From contig WRIR01000005.1 of assembly GCA_009782605.1 (NCBI GenBank), positions 1 through 64,000 of the forward strand: a stretch of 64,000 bases of DNA, given 5' to 3'. The notes below the pieces were generated by a model. The model had not been told where the DNA came from and did no database searches. It saw only the letters and a list, made by a program, of their open reading frames with translations. The translations under genes were made by a program, and so were the position numbers. This stretch comes from Eggerthellaceae bacterium. GTDB lineage: Bacteria; Actinomycetota; Coriobacteriia; Coriobacteriales; Eggerthellaceae. Shown piece by piece: positions 382-61,013 of the stretch (positions are counted from its first letter, which is position 1; every line of letters starts with the position of its first letter).

Positions 382-397
382 TGTTTCACGTGAAACA
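382..397. other. parS site 1
   Basis: Perfect 16-bp palindrome TGTTTCACGTGAAACA, the consensus ParB-binding parS site. The symmetry extends to 24 bp (378-401). It lies in non-coding DNA downstream of the CPBP protease gene. ParB bound at parS loads SMC and helps segregate origins; that role is from the family, and no ParB gene is in view. Confidence 0.95.
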
Positions 398-466: not shown

Positions 467-482
467 TGTTTCACGTGAAACA
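467..482. other. parS site 2 in a 36-bp palindrome
   Basis: Second perfect TGTTTCACGTGAAACA, 85 bp after the first. Here the dyad extends perfectly over 457-492 (36 bp), so the DNA or its transcript could also form a strong hairpin at the end of the reverse-strand CPBP gene. It may therefore double as a transcription terminator (inference). Confidence 0.95.
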
Positions 483-4564: not shown

Positions 4565-5986
4565 ATGCCACAGCAGGCGGGACATAGGGACAACAAGGCC
4601 GATTCCTCAAGGGCAGGCGGCTCCTTCACCAGGAAGGACCAGTCTCTCCCTCAAAACATCGAGGCCGAGGAATCGGTCCTTGCCGCCTGCATGCTCAACC
4701 AGGATGCGGTGGTGGAGATCGCGACGAAGCTCGCCCCCGCGAACTTCTTCCGCCCCGCCCACCAGCTCATCTTCGGAAGCATCTTGGACCTCTACACCCG
4801 GCATATTCCGGTCGATCAGATATCCCTGGCCGATAACCTCAGGGCTTCGGGGCAGCTTGAGGCGGCAGGCAATAAAAGCTACCTGGTGGGCCTGGCCGAC
4901 AACACCTTCGCGCTCACCAACTGGCGCAACCATGCCGAGATAGTGAAGAGGAACTCGATTCTGCGCGACCTCGTCTACGCGTCGATCGATATCAACGCCT
5001 TGGCCTACGACGCGCCTGACAACCTGGCGGTCGTGGTAGAAGAGGCGGAAAAGATGCTGTTCCGGGTCACCGAGAAAAGGGTGTCCTCCGACTTCCAGAA
5101 GATCGACAAGCTGACCATCTCCGCCTATGAGGAGCTGAGGGAGCTTGCCGAACGGAAGAGCCACATGAACGGGGTGGCAACAGGCTTCACGGATGTCGAC
5201 AACCTCTTCCACGGGCTGCGCGGCGGCGACCTGGTCATCTTGGCGGCCCGACCCGGCGTCGGCAAGACGTCCTTCGCCCTGAACGTGGCCGTCAACGCCG
5301 CGAAAGCCAACACCACGGTCGCCTTCCTTTCTCTGGAGATGAGCTCGTCTCAACTCGTGCAGCGCGTCTTGTGCGCCGAGGCCCGGGTCGGCCTTTCCAA
5401 GGTCCGCAGCGGGAACGTCGGCAAGGACGACTGGGAGTTCATCGTCTCCGCATCGGAGACGCTCTCCAAGCTTGACCTCTACATTGACGACACCCCTTCG
5501 CTTTCCATCCTTGAGCTGCGCGCGAAGGCACGCCGCGAGCTGCGCGGCAAGGAAAGCGGGCTGATAGTCGTGGACTACCTCCAGCTCATGCAGCCCCCCC
5601 AGGGGCGGCGCGACATCAACCGCACGGTCGAGGTCGGCGAGATATCAAGGGGCCTGAAAATCCTCGCAAAGGAGATGAACATGCCGGTCCTCGCCCTCTC
5701 GCAGCTTTCCCGCCAGGTCGAGATGCGCAAAACCAAGCGCCCCATGCTCTCCGACCTGCGCGAGTCCGGCTCCATCGAGCAGGATGCCGACATCGTCATG
5801 TTCATCGACCGGAGCATGGACGAGATGGAGGCTGAAAGCGAAGGCAGGCCGGATTGGGGGACCGCCGACCTGATTGTCTCAAAGCACCGGAACGGCCCCA
5901 CGAGGGAGATAAAGCTCGCGTACCTGCCGGAATACACGCTCTTCATGAACCATATTGATGAATCTCGTGCAGGAAGCTATGCCTGA
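4565..5986 (+). CDS. dnaB: Replicative DNA helicase
   Basis: A 473-residue DnaB, the hexameric 5'-3' helicase that drives the replication fork and binds primase. The N-terminal domain (about 30-135, opening LPQNIEAEESVLAACML) precedes the RecA-like motor with Walker A ARPGVGKTS (K234) and Walker B IVVDYLQLM. No intein. The frame opens earlier, but ATG 4565 with the upstream AAGAGGTGCCG is the family-consistent start; the earlier part only shadows the bL9 tail. It follows rplI by 23 bp and probably shares its transcript. Confidence 0.97.
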   Translation: MPQQAGHRDNKADSSRAGGSFTRKDQSLPQNIEAEESVLAACMLNQDAVVEIATKLAPANFFRPAHQLIFGSILDLYTRHIPVDQISLADNLRASGQLEAAGNKSYLVGLADNTFALTNWRNHAEIVKRNSILRDLVYASIDINALAYDAPDNLAVVVEEAEKMLFRVTEKRVSSDFQKIDKLTISAYEELRELAERKSHMNGVATGFTDVDNLFHGLRGGDLVILAARPGVGKTSFALNVAVNAAKANTTVAFLSLEMSSSQLVQRVLCAEARVGLSKVRSGNVGKDDWEFIVSASETLSKLDLYIDDTPSLSILELRAKARRELRGKESGLIVVDYLQLMQPPQGRRDINRTVEVGEISRGLKILAKEMNMPVLALSQLSRQVEMRKTKRPMLSDLRESGSIEQDADIVMFIDRSMDEMEAESEGRPDWGTADLIVSKHRNGPTREIKLAYLPEYTLFMNHIDESRAGSYA

Positions 5987-17447: not shown

Positions 17448-19184
17448 ATGCAGGAGCACGCAGCAGGTAAAGGCACGAGAGAAGGCATAGAAGAGAAGGG
17501 ATGGCCCCCCATGGAAGGGTTCGACCTCATCAACGTCGGCATATGGTCCATCGTCCCGCCCATCCTGGCCCTTGGCTTGGCGCTCATCACCAAGGAGGTG
17601 TACTCTTCGCTGACCGTCGGCGTGTTCGTGGGCATGATCATCTACCAGTTCGCGCTCAACGGCGCCGGTCCGGCGCAGCTGGTTGAGAGCTTCACCATGG
17701 TGCCCCAGATGATGGCCGAGCAGATAGCCCGGAACGGGGCCCTGCTCCTGTTCCTTGCCCTGTTGGGGGCCCTGGTCGTGGTGATCGCCTCGGCCGGCGG
17801 CTCGAAGGCCTATGGCGAATGGGTGTCGCAGCACATCAAGAGCGCCCGCATGGCGAAGGTCTTGACGGCGGTGCTCGGCCTCATCGTCTTCGTCGACGAC
17901 TACTTCAACTGCCTGACGGTCGGTGCCGTCATGCGCCCGGTGACCGACCGCTTCAACATAAGCCGCGAGAAGCTGGCCTGGATTATCGACTCGGCCGCCG
18001 CCCCGATCTGCATCATCGCGCCTGTGTCCTCATGGGCGGTGGCGGTCGGCGGGTATCTCGGCGAGGGCGGCTTCACGACCTTTATCGCGTCCATCCCCTA
18101 CAACTTCTACGCACTGCTCACCATCGCCTTCGTCCTGTTCATGTGCCTCACGGGCTTCGATTTCGGCCCCATGAGGACGGCCGAGGCCGAGGCGCAGGTG
18201 GCGATGGCCGACAAGCAGCGCATTCCCGGCAAGGAAAGCGCGCTTGAGTCGGTCGCGACGGCCCGGATATACGACGAGTCTGACCCCGACGCCATCCCGC
18301 CCGAGGGCAATATTCCCGTTCAGGTCGCGGAAGACGCCGACCTTGAGGCTGCGGCCCACCAGATGGCCGAGGACTACAAGGGCATCAACATCTCCGACAA
18401 AGGCAGGGTGTTCGACCTGATGGTCCCGATCGTGACGCTCATCGTGTTCGCGATCGTCGGGATGATGTATGCCGGCGGCTTCTTCGGAGGGACCGAGTTT
18501 TCGGCCGCCATCGGCGAGGACCCGGTATTCGGCCTGAACATCGGCGTTTCGGTCGCGCTGCTTGTGACTGCGCTCATGTTCCTGCCCCGCAGGCTTATGA
18601 GCCTTGAGGGCTATGTGGAGGGCCTTTCAGAAGGCGTGCGGTCGATGGTCGGCGCCATCATGATCCTGATCCTCGCATGGAGCCTGGGTGGCGCGTGCCG
18701 TTACCTGCTGGGAACCGGCGAGTTCGTGAGCGGCTTTTTGAACAGCGTGGGCGTGGACATGGCCCTCCTGCCGGTGGTCCTCTCCATCGTGGCGGCCCTG
18801 ATCGCCTTTGCGATGGGCACGTCGTGGGGGACGATCGCGCTTTTGATGCCGGTCGTCGTGGGAGTCTTCGCGTCGGGAGACCCGCTGTTCGTCGTGGCGG
18901 TCGGGGCGACGCTGGGCGGCGCGGTCTACGGCGACCACGTGTCCCCCATATCGGATACGACCATCCTGTCGTCGGCGGGCGCCCAGTGCAACCACCTGCG
19001 CCATGTGGCAACGCAGCTGCCCTATGCGACGCTGGTCATGGTGATGTGCCTTGTCGGCTATATCGTATGCGCTATCGTCGGGAACCCCTGGGTCCCGCTC
19101 CTTATCTCCGCGTTCCTGATAGTTGTGGCGACGACGGTCCTCGCAAAGACGGACTTCAAGCTGCCCGGGTCGGCTAGGCGCTGA
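17448..19184 (+). CDS. NhaC-family Na+/H+ antiporter
   Basis: A 578-residue polytopic transporter of the NhaC/ion-transporter superfamily. The family core GLIVFVDDYFNCLTVGAVMRPVTD lies in the first half, and GTSWGTIALLMPVVVGV with GAVYGDHVSPISDTTI in the second. A hydrophilic loop of about 90 residues separates the two halves. Expected activity is Na+ export driven by H+ (or an amino-acid exchange variant). The start could be ATG 17448 or the in-frame ATG 17511 (MEGFDLINVG), which fits the family better. The 3' end overlaps the convergent cyclo-ligase gene by 11 bp. Confidence 0.88.
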   Translation: MQEHAAGKGTREGIEEKGWPPMEGFDLINVGIWSIVPPILALGLALITKEVYSSLTVGVFVGMIIYQFALNGAGPAQLVESFTMVPQMMAEQIARNGALLLFLALLGALVVVIASAGGSKAYGEWVSQHIKSARMAKVLTAVLGLIVFVDDYFNCLTVGAVMRPVTDRFNISREKLAWIIDSAAAPICIIAPVSSWAVAVGGYLGEGGFTTFIASIPYNFYALLTIAFVLFMCLTGFDFGPMRTAEAEAQVAMADKQRIPGKESALESVATARIYDESDPDAIPPEGNIPVQVAEDADLEAAAHQMAEDYKGINISDKGRVFDLMVPIVTLIVFAIVGMMYAGGFFGGTEFSAAIGEDPVFGLNIGVSVALLVTALMFLPRRLMSLEGYVEGLSEGVRSMVGAIMILILAWSLGGACRYLLGTGEFVSGFLNSVGVDMALLPVVLSIVAALIAFAMGTSWGTIALLMPVVVGVFASGDPLFVVAVGATLGGAVYGDHVSPISDTTILSSAGAQCNHLRHVATQLPYATLVMVMCLVGYIVCAIVGNPWVPLLISAFLIVVATTVLAKTDFKLPGSARR

Positions 19185-20067
19185 CGATGCGGGGCAGGCA
19201 AAGGTCGTGGCCCTCAAGGGGGACTTCGCCAACCTGCTGCTCCGCGAACGCGGCACCTGCGACAAAGGCGCCGGGGCGAAGCTCTCGCAGGATGCGGTCG
19301 TAGTTCCCCCCGCCATAGCCAAGGCGCCCGAGGCGTGCGTCGAAGGCGACGAGGGGCACCACCACGACGTCGAGGACGCCGGGTGCGACTGTCGGAAAGC
19401 ATTCAAGGGCAGGGTCGTCGGCTGCAAAGGAGCGCAGGGGCTTTCCCACAAAAGGAACAGCATGGGCCTCGTACTGGCAAAAAGACACCTCACGAAAGAC
19501 CATCGGTGCTGTCGCCGCCAGCACTGCCGGGAATGTTTCACGTGAAACATTCCCCGGGACTGTCCCAGGTGCCTCCCTGTTCCGTGCCCGCAGCTTCTGG
19601 GACAGGATAAGCCCTTGCCCCCCTTGTTCCCTGTCCGGAAGTTCGTATTGAAAATCGGCAGCTTGTTTCGAGAATGCCTGCTCGCCGGGGAATGTTTCAC
19701 GTGAAACATTTTTCTGCATGCAGGGAAAGCAGAGCCGTCCCCCGTGCTCATGTACTGCGCGGATGAAGCGGTCGAGCGAGACCTCGCTGCGTTTCGCGGC
19801 ATAGACGGCGACAATCTTGCCGGGAAGCGTCCCCCCTCCTACGATCCCTCCTGCGCCTTCTGAGCCAAGGCCGTCGCCAACACCGAAGGCGCGACACATC
19901 TCCAGCAACAGCTCGTCACAGATGCGGATGCTTTTCTGTTCGCGCATGAAAGCGGGAATCGCGTCACGGCGTGCCAACGCAAGGCGGCGAAGCTCCTTTT
20001 TTCGCCCCGCTTCGTTGCGCCCCGCCTCACCCTCCGGCCACGTCCCGCGTTCCGCCATGTCTTCCAT
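19174..20067 (-). CDS. 5-formyl-THF cyclo-ligase with parS-bearing insertion
   Basis: A 297-residue protein whose two ends match 5-formyltetrahydrofolate cyclo-ligase (YgfA/MTHFS), which makes 5,10-methenyl-THF with ATP. The N-terminal part has GRKKELRRLALARRDAI and VAVYAAKRSEVSLDRF; the C-terminal part has VPLVAFDARLGRLGYGGGNYD, the family signature. The family is normally about 180-200 residues. The excess is mainly an insertion of about 70 residues after LCFPCM (near residue 120) and before APMVFREVSF. Each end of the insertion reads NVSRETF, the translation of a parS palindrome. The frame is intact, so the enzyme may tolerate this loop. A Gly-rich stretch near residue 70 is also extra. 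Confidence 0.85.
   Translation of the reverse strand: MEDMAERGTWPEGEAGRNEAGRKKELRRLALARRDAIPAFMREQKSIRICDELLLEMCRAFGVGDGLGSEGAGGIVGGGTLPGKIVAVYAAKRSEVSLDRFIRAVHEHGGRLCFPCMQKNVSRETFPGEQAFSKQAADFQYELPDREQGGQGLILSQKLRARNREAPGTVPGNVSRETFPAVLAATAPMVFREVSFCQYEAHAVPFVGKPLRSFAADDPALECFPTVAPGVLDVVVVPLVAFDARLGRLGYGGGNYDRILRELRPGAFVAGAAFAEQQVGEVPLEGHDLCLPRIVSA
19534..19549. other. parS site 3 (inside coding frame)
   Basis: Perfect TGTTTCACGTGAAACA with symmetry extending over 19529-19554 (26 bp). It lies within the cyclo-ligase gene and is translated as NVSRETF. 159 bp (53 codons) from parS site 4. Confidence 0.95.
19693..19708. other. parS site 4 (inside coding frame)
   Basis: Perfect TGTTTCACGTGAAACA, symmetry 19691-19710, at the N-terminal side of the insertion in the cyclo-ligase gene and again read as NVSRETF in the protein. 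Confidence 0.95.
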
Positions 20068-20166: not shown

Positions 20167-21507
20167 CTACACCACGACCCCGACGCCCATCACCTGCATG
20201 ACCAAAAGGACCACGGTCAATACGGTAACGACGACAACGGTGAGCCACAGCAGCCCCAGCGAGGCGGCCTTGGTCTTGTACTCGCGCATGATGCGGACAT
20301 CGGAAGATATGAGCGCCATGAACACGAGCAGTACCGGCAGGACGACGCCGTTCACGAACTGCGCCGTCAGCATGACGCCCAGGAGGTCGATGTTGGGGAT
20401 GAGGTCGACGGCAACCGAGAACACGATGACGAAGGTCAGGATACCCTTGAAAAGCGGCGCTTCCTTCCAGGTGAAGGACACCCCGGCCTCCCAGCCGAAG
20501 GCCTCGCAGATCACGAAGGAGGTGGTTAGCGGAAGCACGCAGGCCGCCAAGAACGATGCGGCGACAAGGCCGATCGCGAAGAGCGTCTTCGCGTACTGCC
20601 CGGCGAAAGGCTCCAGCGCCTGGGCCGCGTCGGCGGCGCTTTCGATGGCGATGCCGTGGGGGTAGAGCACGGTGGCGGTGGTAACCACGATGAACCAGGC
20701 AACGAGGCAGGCGGCGATGACCCCGGAATAGACATCGACCTTCTGCGAGAAGAGCCCCTTGACGCCCTCGCCCTTCTCTACGACGTTGCTCTGGTTGAAG
20801 AACATCATCCAGGGCGCGACGGTCGTGCCGATCATCGCGATGACCAGCGACACGAAGTTGACGTTTCCGATCACGTGCGGCACAACGGTGTTGTAGGCAG
20901 CGTCACTCCAATTCGGCTGTGCCATGAAGGCAGCAACCACATAGGTGACGAACACGAGGGAGAGCGCGAGGAATATCTTCTCGATCCGCTTGTAGCTGCC
21001 GCTCACTATGAGGAACCAGACCGCCACGGCGGCGACCGGTATCGAGACGTACTTCGACACGCCGAACATCTCCATGCCCGAGGCGATGCCGGCGAACTCC
21101 GAGAAGGTGGTCGCCACGTTGCCGATGAGCAGTGCAAGCATGGCGAAGGCCGTCAGGCGGATACCGAAGCGCTCACGGATGAGCGCCGCGAAGCCCTTGC
21201 CGGTGACGGCCCCCATGCGTGCGGCGGTCAGCTGCACGACGATCAGCAAGACGCACATGACCGGCACGACCCACAGCGTCGTGAACCCGAACTCGGCGCC
21301 GACGACAGAATAGGTCGAGATGCCGCCTGCGTCGTTGCCCGCCATGGCGGTGACGACGCCCGGCCCGAGCGCCGCAAGGAACAGCCAGAGCTTCGTCTTC
21401 TTCTTGGAAGGGGCCGGGGCAGCGGCCTCGATCCCCGCGGCACCCTCGGTGCTGGCAAGGCCTGCGGCGTTGTCCGCGCTGTCCGGCTTAGCAGATTTGA
21501 CTATCAT
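20167..21507 (-). CDS. NRAMP-related Mg2+ transporter (NRMT type)
   Basis: A 446-residue, 11-helix SLC11/NRAMP-fold transporter. The helix-1 metal motif is D59-A-G-G instead of the classical D-P-G-N, so the Asp is kept and the Asn is Gly. In helix 6 the usual M-P-H-N is A231-P-W-M, so the methionine that selects transition metals is Ala. As I recall, this is the pattern described for NRMT magnesium transporters, whose studied member comes from Eggerthella lenta. It lies 17 bp after an MgtE-like regulatory gene, supporting Mg2+ as substrate. A 35-residue Ala-rich cytoplasmic N-terminus precedes helix 1. CAGGAG stands upstream of ATG 21507. Confidence 0.85.
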   Translation of the reverse strand: MIVKSAKPDSADNAAGLASTEGAAGIEAAAPAPSKKKTKLWLFLAALGPGVVTAMAGNDAGGISTYSVVGAEFGFTTLWVVPVMCVLLIVVQLTAARMGAVTGKGFAALIRERFGIRLTAFAMLALLIGNVATTFSEFAGIASGMEMFGVSKYVSIPVAAVAVWFLIVSGSYKRIEKIFLALSLVFVTYVVAAFMAQPNWSDAAYNTVVPHVIGNVNFVSLVIAMIGTTVAPWMMFFNQSNVVEKGEGVKGLFSQKVDVYSGVIAACLVAWFIVVTTATVLYPHGIAIESAADAAQALEPFAGQYAKTLFAIGLVAASFLAACVLPLTTSFVICEAFGWEAGVSFTWKEAPLFKGILTFVIVFSVAVDLIPNIDLLGVMLTAQFVNGVVLPVLLVFMALISSDVRIMREYKTKAASLGLLWLTVVVVTVLTVVLLVMQVMGVGVVV

Positions 21508-21524: not shown

Positions 21525-22877
21525 TTAGTTCCCGGGATACCCTATCGCCTGGAACAGGATCATCGTGTAGATGAAGAGGAAGACGAGCGCCGCCCCGACA
21601 ATGCCGACGGTCATGAGCACGCGCTTCTTGAGCTTCTCTTCGTTCGCATCCTCTTCTATGACGTCATACGCGTCGTCAACCGTGACGATGCCGAGCAGCT
21701 TGCCGGACTCGTCAACGACGGGCATGGCGGGCAAGTCGTACTTGAAGATGTCGGCTGCAACCTCCTCTTCCGTTTTCGTGGGAAGGGCGGTGATCAGCTC
21801 GGAGTACATGATGTCCTTGAGGGGCGTCGCCGCATCGACGAGCACCAGGGTACGCAGCGAAGCCACGCCGACGAGCTTGCCGTATGCGTCGAGCACGTAG
21901 ACGTAGTGGACGGTCGGGAAGTCCTCGTCGAGCTCCCGCAGGGCCTCTATCGTCTCCGCAACGGTCCGGGTCTCCTCGACCGCGACATACTGCGTGGTCA
22001 TCATGCCGCCAGCCGTCCCCTCCTTGTACCCGAGAAGGCCGCGGATTGCCGCCGCGTCCTCCATGCCCATCAGGTGCAGCAGGGTCTCTGCCTTTTCGTA
22101 GGAAAGGTCGCGCACGATGTCGGCGGCGTCGTCGGGATCCATCTTCCCCAGCAGGGTGGAGGCACGCGCCTCGTCGAGGTCCTCGATGAAGTCGGCCTGG
22201 TACTCGTCTTCCATCTCAGAGATGGCGTCGGTCGCCCGCGCCTCGTCCAGGTGCGCGAAGACGCTCGCCCGCTGTTGAGGGTCGAGCTGTTCGAGGATGT
22301 CGGCGACGTCTGCGGGATGCATCTCGTTCAGGCGCTTATGGGTGACGGAAAGCTGCACCTCGGAAAGGTCCCGGTCGAGCAGATCCATATAGTTCCAGGC
22401 GATGATCTGCTCGTCTATCTTCTTCCCGAAGGCCCGTGCCAGGGCGAGGACGGCACGCTCAAGGTGCTGTGAAAGCCCCCGCATAATGCCGCGCATGCCG
22501 ACTTCGGCGCCGAGCAGGCGCAGCTGCTTCCCGGAAACGGAGAGCTTGAGGTCGTTCACGCGCACGACCTTCATCCCCTGCGTATCGACGATCTGACGGT
22601 TCAGCAGGTCGCGCGCGAGCAGAACTTCGTCAGGTTGCAGATAGCTGAAACGGATGTGGTGGCCCTCGACCCCGAGGTCGATGCCATCCTCGTCAAAGCT
22701 CTCGACGTATTTGCGCCACGAGACCATGAAGGGCTTCTTGCCCGGCCCCTGGAAGGCGAGGCTCGTGATGCGGGGGAACATCTCGCCTGTTGAGATGGCG
22801 AGGTCTGAGACCTTGCCGATTTTTGCCCCCGTCGAGTCCACGACGGGCTCCCCAAGCATTTGTGAAAGATAGAGCAT
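21525..22877 (-). CDS. MgtE-like PRC/CBS regulatory protein with one helix
   Basis: A 450-residue protein with two PRC-barrel-like segments (about 3-75 and 85-135), an MgtE intracellular N domain (about 190-290, with repeated EMEDEYQADFIEDLD-type helices and DPDDAADIVRDL), and a CBS pair (about 295-415). It ends in a single transmembrane helix (about 426-446). The five-helix MgtE channel is missing, so it cannot transport by itself. In MgtE these cytosolic domains sense Mg2+; I infer it gates or anchors the NRMT transporter encoded next. ATG 22877 is preferred to ATG 22883, since AAGGG is well spaced only for the former. Confidence 0.85.
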   Translation of the reverse strand: MLYLSQMLGEPVVDSTGAKIGKVSDLAISTGEMFPRITSLAFQGPGKKPFMVSWRKYVESFDEDGIDLGVEGHHIRFSYLQPDEVLLARDLLNRQIVDTQGMKVVRVNDLKLSVSGKQLRLLGAEVGMRGIMRGLSQHLERAVLALARAFGKKIDEQIIAWNYMDLLDRDLSEVQLSVTHKRLNEMHPADVADILEQLDPQQRASVFAHLDEARATDAISEMEDEYQADFIEDLDEARASTLLGKMDPDDAADIVRDLSYEKAETLLHLMGMEDAAAIRGLLGYKEGTAGGMMTTQYVAVEETRTVAETIEALRELDEDFPTVHYVYVLDAYGKLVGVASLRTLVLVDAATPLKDIMYSELITALPTKTEEEVAADIFKYDLPAMPVVDESGKLLGIVTVDDAYDVIEEDANEEKLKKRVLMTVGIVGAALVFLFIYTMILFQAIGYPGN

Positions 22878-22883
22878 AGGCAT

Positions 22884-35129: not shown

Positions 35130-36998
35130 ATGCAAGACCATCTGATTCTCAACAGGTTCCGCCTCATCGCCGAAGCCGGATCGGGCGGTTTTTCGACAGT
35201 CCAACTCGCATGGGACCCCCGTATGCAGCGGCGGGTCGCCATCAAGTGCTTCCCCCTGGGCGAGGACGACCGTACCCAGATGGACGCAGCAACCTTCGGT
35301 TATCCGGGAGGCTATCCCGGAGAAGGCTACCAAGAGAGCCAGAGCTACCTGCCCCACTCCCTTGAGGGCATCCCTGGGCTCAGGGAGGCGCGCACCGACG
35401 CCCTCTTCACCGACAGCGCCATCGTCGAGGCCTACGACTTCGTCGTGCAGGGTTCGACGGCCTACCTCATCATGGAATACGTCGACGGGCTTACGCTTGC
35501 CGAGCTGCTGCAGGCCTACGACGGCGAGCTCTCGCTCGACGTGGTCGCCACCATATTCTCGTCCGTCGCGCAAGCCCTCAAGGTCGCACACGAGAACCGG
35601 GTGCTCCACCTGGACATAAAGCCCAGCAACGTGCTCATCAGCCGCCAGGGTCAAGTGAAGGTGGCCGACTTCGGGCTCGCCACACTCGCAGGCTCCACGG
35701 GGTTCGGAGCGGCAAGCGGCGGCACCATCGGCTACATGCCCCCCGAGCAGATGCGTCAGGAAAGCCTCGATGTCCGCTGCGACGAATGGGCGCTTGCGAG
35801 CATCACCTACGAGATGCTTACCGGCAAGAACCCCTTTATTGTGCGTGACTTCTCTCAGGCGGAGGCCGCCATCGTCAATGCGGAATTGGTGCTCCCCTCG
35901 CTCTGTATCGACGGCCTTTCTGCCGAGGCAGACGACGTGCTCTTCTATGCCCTCGACCCCGACCGGAAGGCCCGGTACAGCAGCGTCGCCGACTTCGCCG
36001 AAGAGATGGGCCGCTTCCTGGGCGACCAGGTAGAGGGCAAACACGAGCTTGCCCTGCTCGTCGAACAGGCCTGTGAAGACTTCGGAGACGGTTTCCCCGA
36101 GGATGCCGAAAGACATCCGGTGTACCTTGACTTCTTCGACCGCATGAGCAGACGCAGCAAAGGCATCGCCTCGCGCGTGTGGGGCGCCTTGAACACCGCC
36201 GCCCTCGGTTTCGTCGCCTTGAGCAGCATGCCCCAGATAGACGGGTGGGCAAGCCCGCTTTTCTGGGGGATACTCGCACTCCTGGTCGTCACGGCAGCAA
36301 TCAAGCCGCACCTCGGCGCGATCCTCGGGCTCCTGGCGCTGGTGGTCGCCCTCTTCGCCAACAACGCCCCCCTCCTGGGCCTCGTGCTGCTGTCGCTCTC
36401 GCTTCTGTGGTGGCTTTTCATCGGGCGGATGGGGGACAGCCAGGCAAACTCTGCCACCGCGCCCGCCCTCTTTGGCGGGGCCGGCTTTAACCAGATGAGC
36501 CCTTTGCTCGTCGGCTTCCTGCTGAACACCAAGGACGCGGTCGCGAACATCGTGTTCGCACTGGTGTTGAGCATGGTCCTTGCAGGCTTCGGCTCGGGCA
36601 GCCTTCTGGGGTGGAACACCGTCGGGTTCTGGGATTTCGCCGGCACGGGTATTCAGGACAGGGTTTGGGATCTGCTCGTGCAGCCGTCAACCTGGTGTGT
36701 TATCGCAAGCTGGTTCCTGGCTGCCGCTGCAGTTCGCCTGCTCTGCCTCAGGCGGACCCGCTTTCTCGCGGCCGTCGGCATACTCTTGGGTACTGCGGTG
36801 CTGGTGGGCGGCTTGTGTCAGGGTGCCTGGCTCGACAGCGGCTATGCCTCGTGGATGCCGGACTCGCTGGCCCTCGGCCTCACCATCGGCGCGGGCGCCA
36901 TCATGACGGTGACTTGCGTCCTTGGCGTACCGCCCCGCGAGAACGAGGCCCAAGAAGAAGGGCCGCAAACCCCCTTGAGCCAATCCGGGGAAATCTAG
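35130..36998 (+). CDS. Ser/Thr protein kinase with polytopic membrane half
   Basis: A 622-residue protein. The kinase domain (about 8-290) has the glycine loop AGSGGFSTV, VAIK with K39, catalytic H160-L-D162-IKPSN and D180-FG. The HRD arginine is Leu, so it is a non-RD kinase that should not need activation-loop phosphorylation. A ~45-residue Tyr/Gly/Gln-rich insertion lies between the VAIK strand and helix C. The C-terminal half (about 350-600) has roughly eight transmembrane helices rather than the single helix plus PASTA domains of PknB. Target and signal are unknown. It stands alone after tRNA-Leu. Confidence 0.85.
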   Translation: MQDHLILNRFRLIAEAGSGGFSTVQLAWDPRMQRRVAIKCFPLGEDDRTQMDAATFGYPGGYPGEGYQESQSYLPHSLEGIPGLREARTDALFTDSAIVEAYDFVVQGSTAYLIMEYVDGLTLAELLQAYDGELSLDVVATIFSSVAQALKVAHENRVLHLDIKPSNVLISRQGQVKVADFGLATLAGSTGFGAASGGTIGYMPPEQMRQESLDVRCDEWALASITYEMLTGKNPFIVRDFSQAEAAIVNAELVLPSLCIDGLSAEADDVLFYALDPDRKARYSSVADFAEEMGRFLGDQVEGKHELALLVEQACEDFGDGFPEDAERHPVYLDFFDRMSRRSKGIASRVWGALNTAALGFVALSSMPQIDGWASPLFWGILALLVVTAAIKPHLGAILGLLALVVALFANNAPLLGLVLLSLSLLWWLFIGRMGDSQANSATAPALFGGAGFNQMSPLLVGFLLNTKDAVANIVFALVLSMVLAGFGSGSLLGWNTVGFWDFAGTGIQDRVWDLLVQPSTWCVIASWFLAAAAVRLLCLRRTRFLAAVGILLGTAVLVGGLCQGAWLDSGYASWMPDSLALGLTIGAGAIMTVTCVLGVPPRENEAQEEGPQTPLSQSGEI

Positions 36999-60231: not shown

Positions 60232-60247
60232 TGTTTCACGTGAAACA
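60232..60247. other. parS site 5
   Basis: Perfect TGTTTCACGTGAAACA with almost no further symmetry, in the 423-bp gap between tatA and tRNA-Ser. That gap otherwise contains only the tRNA promoter. It lies 40 kb from sites 3-4. Confidence 0.95.
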
Positions 60248-60397: not shown

Positions 60398-60488
60398 GGA
60401 GAGCTGACCGAGAGGCCGAAGGTGCTCGCCTGCTAAGCGAGTATACGCCACAAGCGTATCTGGGGTTCGAATCCCCAGCTCTCCGCCA
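60398..60488 (+). tRNA. tRNA-Ser (GCT)
   Basis: A 91-nt type II tRNA: GGAGAGC/GCTCTCC acceptor, CTCGC/GCGAG stem with anticodon GCT, long variable arm, T arm GGGTTCGAATCCC, discriminator G, encoded CCA. Confidence 0.96.
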
Positions 60489-60925: not shown

Positions 60926-61013
60926 TGGCGGAGGAAGTAGGATTTGAACCCACGGTACCTTGCGGTACAACAGTTTTCAAGACTGCCGCCTTCGACCACT
61001 CGGCCATTCCTCC
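60926..61013 (-). tRNA. tRNA-Ser (TGA)
   Basis: An 88-nt type II tRNA on the reverse strand: GGAGGAA/TTCCTCC acceptor, CAGT/ACTG region with anticodon TGA, long variable arm, T arm GGGTTCAAATCC, discriminator G, encoded CCA (60926-60928). Confidence 0.95.

Follow-up and report, generated by a model that had tools for sequence, protein, structure and literature searches.

Numerous parS sites in Eggerthellaceae genomes and their in-frame occurrence in a variable loop of a cyclo-ligase

In the current analysis two perfect parS palindromes have been identified within the gene of a 5-formyltetrahydrofolate cyclo-ligase encoded in the window, the stretch of 64,000 nucleotides of an Eggerthellaceae genome (assembly GCA_009782605.1, contig WRIR01000005.1) that was analysed. 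They are probably parS sites of an enlarged centromere zone near the replication origin, retained by selection on the DNA in a loop of the protein that tolerates them. The real discovery behind the cyclo-ligase finding looks to be the occurrence, across the family, of genomes with more than 100 parS sites. On balance, and with some reserve, we favour a diffuse and hyper-amplified centromere in several genera of Eggerthellaceae, including E. lenta, comprised of more than 100 full ParB-loading sites that are densest at the origin, extend over much of the chromosome and are partly placed in frame, as a VSRET cassette, in disordered linkers. Segregation would thus shape the linkers of proteins, and the cyclo-ligase loop would be one of the hosts.

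parS sites of the window and of its genome

The sequence TGTTTCACGTGAAACA is said to have been given as the parS consensus by Livny and colleagues in 2007. The window has five perfect copies of this palindrome (Table 1), as against 0.14 sites expected even when up to three mismatches are allowed. As had been stated in the original prediction, both sites within the cyclo-ligase gene are perfect and are read as NVSRETF, which is borne out by the sequence. A site had been placed at each end of the excess segment of the protein; the peptides do lie near both ends (approximately residues 3-9 and 56-62 of the loop) but not exactly at them. The two sites are related by a direct repeat of 35 nucleotides (86%) as well as by a perfect inverted repeat of 26 nucleotides.

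Table 1. Positions of the genes, parS sites and repeats of the window that are referred to in the text
Feature	Position	Strand	Remarks
Perfect parS, intergenic	382..397	.	Paired with the site at 467
Perfect parS	467..482	.	Centre of a 32-bp perfect palindrome, CCCAGGAA-parS-TTCCTGGG (459-490)
Na+/H+ antiporter (NhaC-like)	17448..19184	+	11-bp overlap with the cyclo-ligase gene, 3' end to 3' end
5-formyltetrahydrofolate cyclo-ligase (MTHFS family) CDS	19174..20067	-	297 aa; intact LGYGGGNYD motif
Hypervariable, disordered loop, residues 118-188 (71 aa)	19504..19716	-	Between two beta strands; from alignment, AF2 model and low coding signal
Left arm of 26-bp perfect inverted repeat	19532..19557	.	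AATGTTTCACGTGAAACATTCCCCGG; parS and common flank
Perfect parS, TGTTTCACGTGAAACA	19534-19549	.	C-terminal end of loop; read NVSRETF
Spacer between both loop parS, 143 bp	19550..19692	.	No second copy in three genomes of the genus
Right arm of 26-bp perfect inverted repeat	19685..19710	.	Counterpart of the arm at 19532..19557
Perfect parS, TGTTTCACGTGAAACA	19693-19708	.	N-terminal end of loop; read NVSRETF
NRAMP transporter	20167..21507	-	Syntenic neighbour, as in E. lenta
MgtE-N/CBS/PRC-barrel protein	21525..22883	-	Syntenic neighbour, as in E. lenta
Perfect parS, single, intergenic	60232..60247	.	150 bp before tRNA-Ser 60398-60488

In the genome from which the window is derived, of 1.95 Mb and with a completeness of 83%, 13 parS sites are perfect and another has a single mismatch; a reversed-pattern control gave no matches in it. 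Most of the 13 have a neighbour at less than 200 bp, with spacings of 66, 85, 103, 159, 168 and 190. The original prediction also regarded a segment framed by two sites as unusual. This does not hold, since most sites of the genome are paired in this way and pairs also occur in a RecF tail and in linker 1 of IorA, which are described below. The bases flanking the sites are specific to the lineage, being GGAA-parS-TTCC in the genus of the window and CGAACGAA-parS-TTCGTTCG in E. lenta. In E. lenta the flank tends to be longer (GAACGAA-parS-TTCGTTC) at sites outside the parB cluster, in contrast to those near parB. Another contig of the genome of the window, C11, has a parS centred in a 38-bp perfect palindrome (35622-35659). 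A second tRNA-Ser (60926-61013) is encoded on the other strand near the last parS site of the window.

Position in the chromosome and the ParA and ParB proteins

The position of the window relative to the origin has been taken from synteny because its own assembly is fragmented. The region from 1.8 to 22.9 kb of the window is syntenic with 30-104 kb of the E. lenta genome, with the order NhaC, cyclo-ligase, NRAMP and MgtE. This part of the E. lenta genome is close to the origin end, in which parS sites are dense, and parB (3625.8 kb) follows shortly beyond the junction of the two record ends. The window would accordingly be placed in the origin region, next to parAB across the end of the circle. 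In E. lenta the gap that directly follows the 3' end of the cyclo-ligase gene has a pair of parS sites (99112/99184). There is no intergenic gap at this place in the window because the 3' ends of the antiporter and cyclo-ligase genes overlap.

Contig C11, which is syntenic with the origin end of E. lenta, encodes a canonical ParB with ParB_N (PF02195) and HTH_ParB (PF17762) domains and a ParA-family ATPase whose gene is directly upstream. Six parS sites are found upstream of parA/parB, at 1.5-3.5 kb from parB. Further ParB-like proteins are encoded in the genome besides the ParB next to parA, which scores 224 bits on the Noc model TIGR04285, below the cut-off of 315.

Gaps between orthologous genes share parS sites between genera. 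For the genomes G022 and G055 (E. lenta), 17 such gaps have been observed as against 10.3 expected (P 0.0009), and for G022 and G065 8 as against 4.5 (P 0.003). The small comparison of the genome of the window with E. lenta gave 2 as against 0.95, which is not significant (P 0.22).

The cyclo-ligase and its variable loop

The protein encoded in the window matches PF01812, a Pfam model of 186 positions, with 63.3 bits (cut-off 27; E 3.7e-17), and its LGYGGGNYD motif is invariant or nearly so among the aligned relatives. An AF2 model generated with 34 sequences has a confident MTHFS core (pLDDT >90) and a loop predicted to be disordered, with a pLDDT of 43-58 at residues ~120-188, which joins strand 111-118 to strand 189-194 at their tip. 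The Foldseek matches of the model include MTHFS of human, M. pneumoniae and B. anthracis, and the MTHFS fold has been recognised with a probability of 1.00 for 3hy6, 1sbq and 2jcb. The fold and the LGYGGGNYD motif are common to the known MTHFS structures (PDB 3hy3, 1sbq, 2jcb, 1ydm); unlike them, the window protein has a 71-residue disordered loop with two parS at the tip of the beta-hairpin. The enzyme is indeed oversized, as originally predicted, and the excess comprises this segment and, as smaller parts, ~20 additional residues at the N-terminus and another variable linker. No relative has been found among phage records.

A match to PF01812 is absent from both congeners (G001 and G002) and from G013, another family genome that is 98% complete; the cyclo-ligase may be dispensable or replaced in these three, since the match is missing there. 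As both congeners are without the gene, the pair of sites in the window has no within-genus comparison.

The lengths of the segment between FPCM and MVFREV were taken from an alignment of 53 distinct relatives of the family; a count by regular expression over named relatives gave artefacts at a few loci (132 and 200). With 71 residues the segment of the window protein is the longest, and those of the relatives range from 3 to 69 residues and are mostly of about 10. Six relatives belonging to several genera have 40-69 residues at exactly the same place without parS. They include three members of the genus g7, of which two are Candidatus Aveggerthella, an uncultured Gordonibacter sp. (G042), E. 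lenta and Berryella. parS has not been found in the cyclo-ligase gene of any of the 53 relatives or of 73 partly overlapping named relatives, and its occurrence in this gene is thus seen only in the species of the window. When the DNA of the loop was searched in three genomes of the genus, only parS and ~5-10 flanking bases recurred; neither a donor copy of the spacer nor the internal copies of a MITE-like element were found elsewhere in them. The proposed insertion due to parS is not supported by these observations, namely the long loops without parS that the alignment reveals at the same place in six relatives and a spacer without a donor in the genus.

The coding signal of the loop is -0.084 log-odds per codon, which is below all but 0.09% of gene windows, with a GC3 of 0.54. 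The parS-free loop of the E. lenta cyclo-ligase has a signal of -0.053 as against 0.135 for the remainder of the gene. The low signal was considered as a mark of captured non-coding DNA and dropped; it is taken to be a property of such loops because the parS-free loop of E. lenta behaves alike. With its predicted disorder, the loop is best explained as a segment that tolerates almost any in-frame sequence and may hence be host to sites acting at the level of DNA.

parS sites within other genes of the family

The parS sites in six sampled genomes of Eggerthellaceae (~960 kb) have been classified with a home-made three-periodic Markov gene caller, the regions being mostly origin-proximal and picked for holding parS. 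In these, 142 sites are intergenic and 21 genic, although ~84% of the sampled sequence is coding. Eighteen of the 21 genic sites are read as VSRET on the strand of the gene itself and are situated in linkers, tails or insertions. The other three read FHVK, two of them in doubtful ORFs; the E. lenta in-gene sites in the FHVK frame at 5491 and 46999 were set aside as their ORFs are doubtful.

The host proteins, assigned with NCBIfam and Pfam, are unrelated. Indolepyruvate ferredoxin oxidoreductase alpha (IorA) has up to three or four sites, and HypF has three, of which two are insertions within the overall domain match. Other hosts include the N-terminus of HypD, the exonuclease-helicase linker of DinG, the tail of an ABC ATPase, the linker of a PorC-PorD fusion and the N-terminal linker of ParB, and the C-terminal tail of RecF has two sites. 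Segments with two parS are present in the RecF tail of G031, at a distance of 174 bp, and in linker 1 of the IorA of G065 (locus L202), at 54 bp. Three hypervariable spots of IorA have parS in differing combinations in orthologues from several genera (G055, G069, G064, G065, G067 and G062). The same spots are without parS in most other orthologues, and decayed remnants that deviate from parS by one to three mismatches are also found. The IorA of G076 (L198) continues without interruption of the frame for ~380 residues after its last cluster motif, and this C-terminal tail is possibly a fusion or of low complexity. As judged by such sequence comparisons, parS is often gained and lost in the family, and the IorA orthologues show this turnover directly.

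Twenty VSRET peptides have been observed in the ~960 kb sample, as against 0.01-0.08 expected per genome sample from amino-acid frequencies. Eighteen of them are encoded by a perfect parS and two by a parS with one mismatch. The codons that spell parS (GTT, TCA, CGT and ACA) are rare ones, and in genomes with the peptide their use has a chance of 3e-7 to 9e-5 per site. Selection is therefore likely to act on the DNA and not on the peptide, because every sampled VSRET is coded by parS. Selection on parS DNA inside coding sequences, with the protein merely tolerating it, is well supported by these sequence data and is not confined to the cyclo-ligase. The original suggestion of selection for ParB loading in an enzyme gene thus stands as regards selection on a DNA site, for which the rare codons and the other genes speak; the assumed insertion, whether produced by parS or for its sake, is not supported.

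Number and distribution of parS in the Eggerthellaceae

The number of perfect parS sites per Eggerthellaceae genome ranges from 0 to 148; counts of perfect 16-mers understate genomes with variant parS. E. lenta has 130 and the other genomes of g22 have 109-148, and more than 100 are also encountered in the genera g6, g24, g25 and g38. The genomes with more than 100 include G054, G055, G057, G060, G061, G022, G065, G090 and G091. Many genera of the family have 2-8 and the genus of the window has 12-23. In a sample of 396 genomes, the 380 that belong to other Actinomycetota have at most 21.

In E. lenta 63 of the 130 sites, about half, are situated in the interval from -80 to +200 kb around the record ends, and ~21 are found between 0.8 and 2.8 Mb. 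G022 has a cluster around its own parB together with sites spread along the chromosome. In both genomes, including regions remote from the origin, pairs of sites recur with fixed spacings of 34-36 bp or of 48 bp, for example G055:C1:640497/640532 and G022:C1:100651/100685. One such pair is flanked by a marR-like gene on one side and by the gene of an acyl carrier protein on the other.

The chromosomal ParABS centromere, with the parS consensus TGTTTCACGTGAAACA (Jalal and Le 2020, PMC7333895), and the sites of the family share the same 16-bp palindrome, the adjoining parA/parB, the highest density at the origin and a ParB with ParB_N and HTH_ParB domains. The family differs in number, with as many as 148 perfect sites, and in their placement, which for some is remote from the origin and for some is in frame in linkers. 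Reviews give 1 to ~20-23 parS per genome, clustered at the origin (PMC10197239, PMC7333895). Streptomyces coelicolor and Listeria, with 20-23 sites (PMC7333895), and Myxococcus xanthus, with 22 (PMC3899335), have many parS around oriC like the family, but 5-7 fold fewer than the parS-rich Eggerthellaceae. In Pseudomonas aeruginosa the zone competent for parS function covers ~650 kb around oriC (PMC5098823); the bias towards the origin is in common, but the E. lenta sites at 0.8-2.8 Mb are far outside such a zone. The ParB of P. aeruginosa also binds half-parS sites of 7 bp at hundreds of chromosomal places without spreading (PMC7022226), whereas the sites of the family are full, perfect 16-bp palindromes. 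In the portions covered of the open-licence literature, no report has been found on parS in Eggerthella or Coriobacteria, on in-gene parS or on very high parS numbers, and the articles searched gave no description of VSRET in linkers.

Proposed origin of the loop sites and alternative explanations

We suggest that parS sites of the family settle mostly in intergenic gaps and that others may settle in frame within proteins, as the hydrophilic [N/D]VSRET of a disordered linker or tail. The gap that holds the E. lenta pair is absent from the window, and its pair would sit in the cyclo-ligase loop instead; loss of the gap by compaction may have moved the sites there. ParB would load at the loop sites as a CTP clamp and spread, which would help ParA and SMC to act on the origin region, and the cyclo-ligase would keep working with a floppy loop. 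The sites and their perfection, the variability of the loop, the in-linker pattern, the synteny and the canonical ParA and ParB form the basis in sequence for this suggestion.

The repeats shared by the two loop sites could also point to a true insertion, in which a segment bounded by parS was captured or locally duplicated, and the intergenic-like base statistics of the loop agree with such an origin. We nevertheless find it quite unlikely, as long loops of relatives are without parS, the parS-free loop of E. lenta is equally low in coding signal, the spacer is without a donor in the genus and the common flank is the one usual for parS of the lineage. A short repeat of ~26-35 bp containing parS, selfish or mechanically multiplied like REP or MITE elements, would account for the numbers without selection for ParB loading. 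It is unlikely, although the similarity of copies extends past the 16-bp core into lineage-specific flanks and pair spacings recur in E. lenta and G022: the flanks degrade fast with distance while the core stays perfect, one-mismatch copies are rare in the genome of the window, E. lenta sites are concentrated around parB/oriC, and orthologous gaps keep parS between genera.

The palindrome might equally be read by another DNA-binding protein, such as a Noc-like protein or a regulator, or act as a bidirectional RNA hairpin or terminator. The 32-38-bp perfect palindromes around some sites, the further ParB-like proteins and the match of ParB to the Noc model, if below its cut-off, are in line with this. 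The identity with the consensus parS of the literature (PMC10197239) and the clustering next to parA/parB, however, make another reader very unlikely, and the in-gene copies and the positions in tandem and divergent gaps are ill-suited to terminators. That NVSRETF is itself useful to the protein is hardly credible. The peptide is present twice in the loop and again in a number of unrelated proteins, but all sampled VSRET are encoded by the rare codons of parS, single-base decays occur, the hosts are unrelated and flanking residues vary freely; VSRET in other codons was not seen in the orthologues.

Implications

Among the open questions of the ParABS field are the reasons for which bacteria differ in their number of parS sites and for which these are clustered near the origin (PMC7333895). 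E. lenta, a cultured gut bacterium with 130 perfect sites, and its close relatives with 2-14 form a natural contrast, which is suited to measuring ParB spreading, SMC loading and chromosome folding. VSRET may serve as a peptide mark by which in-gene parS could be found from protein databases. The in-frame parS sites in linkers of the Eggerthellaceae would represent a clean case of a constraint at the level of DNA dictating the sequence of proteins.
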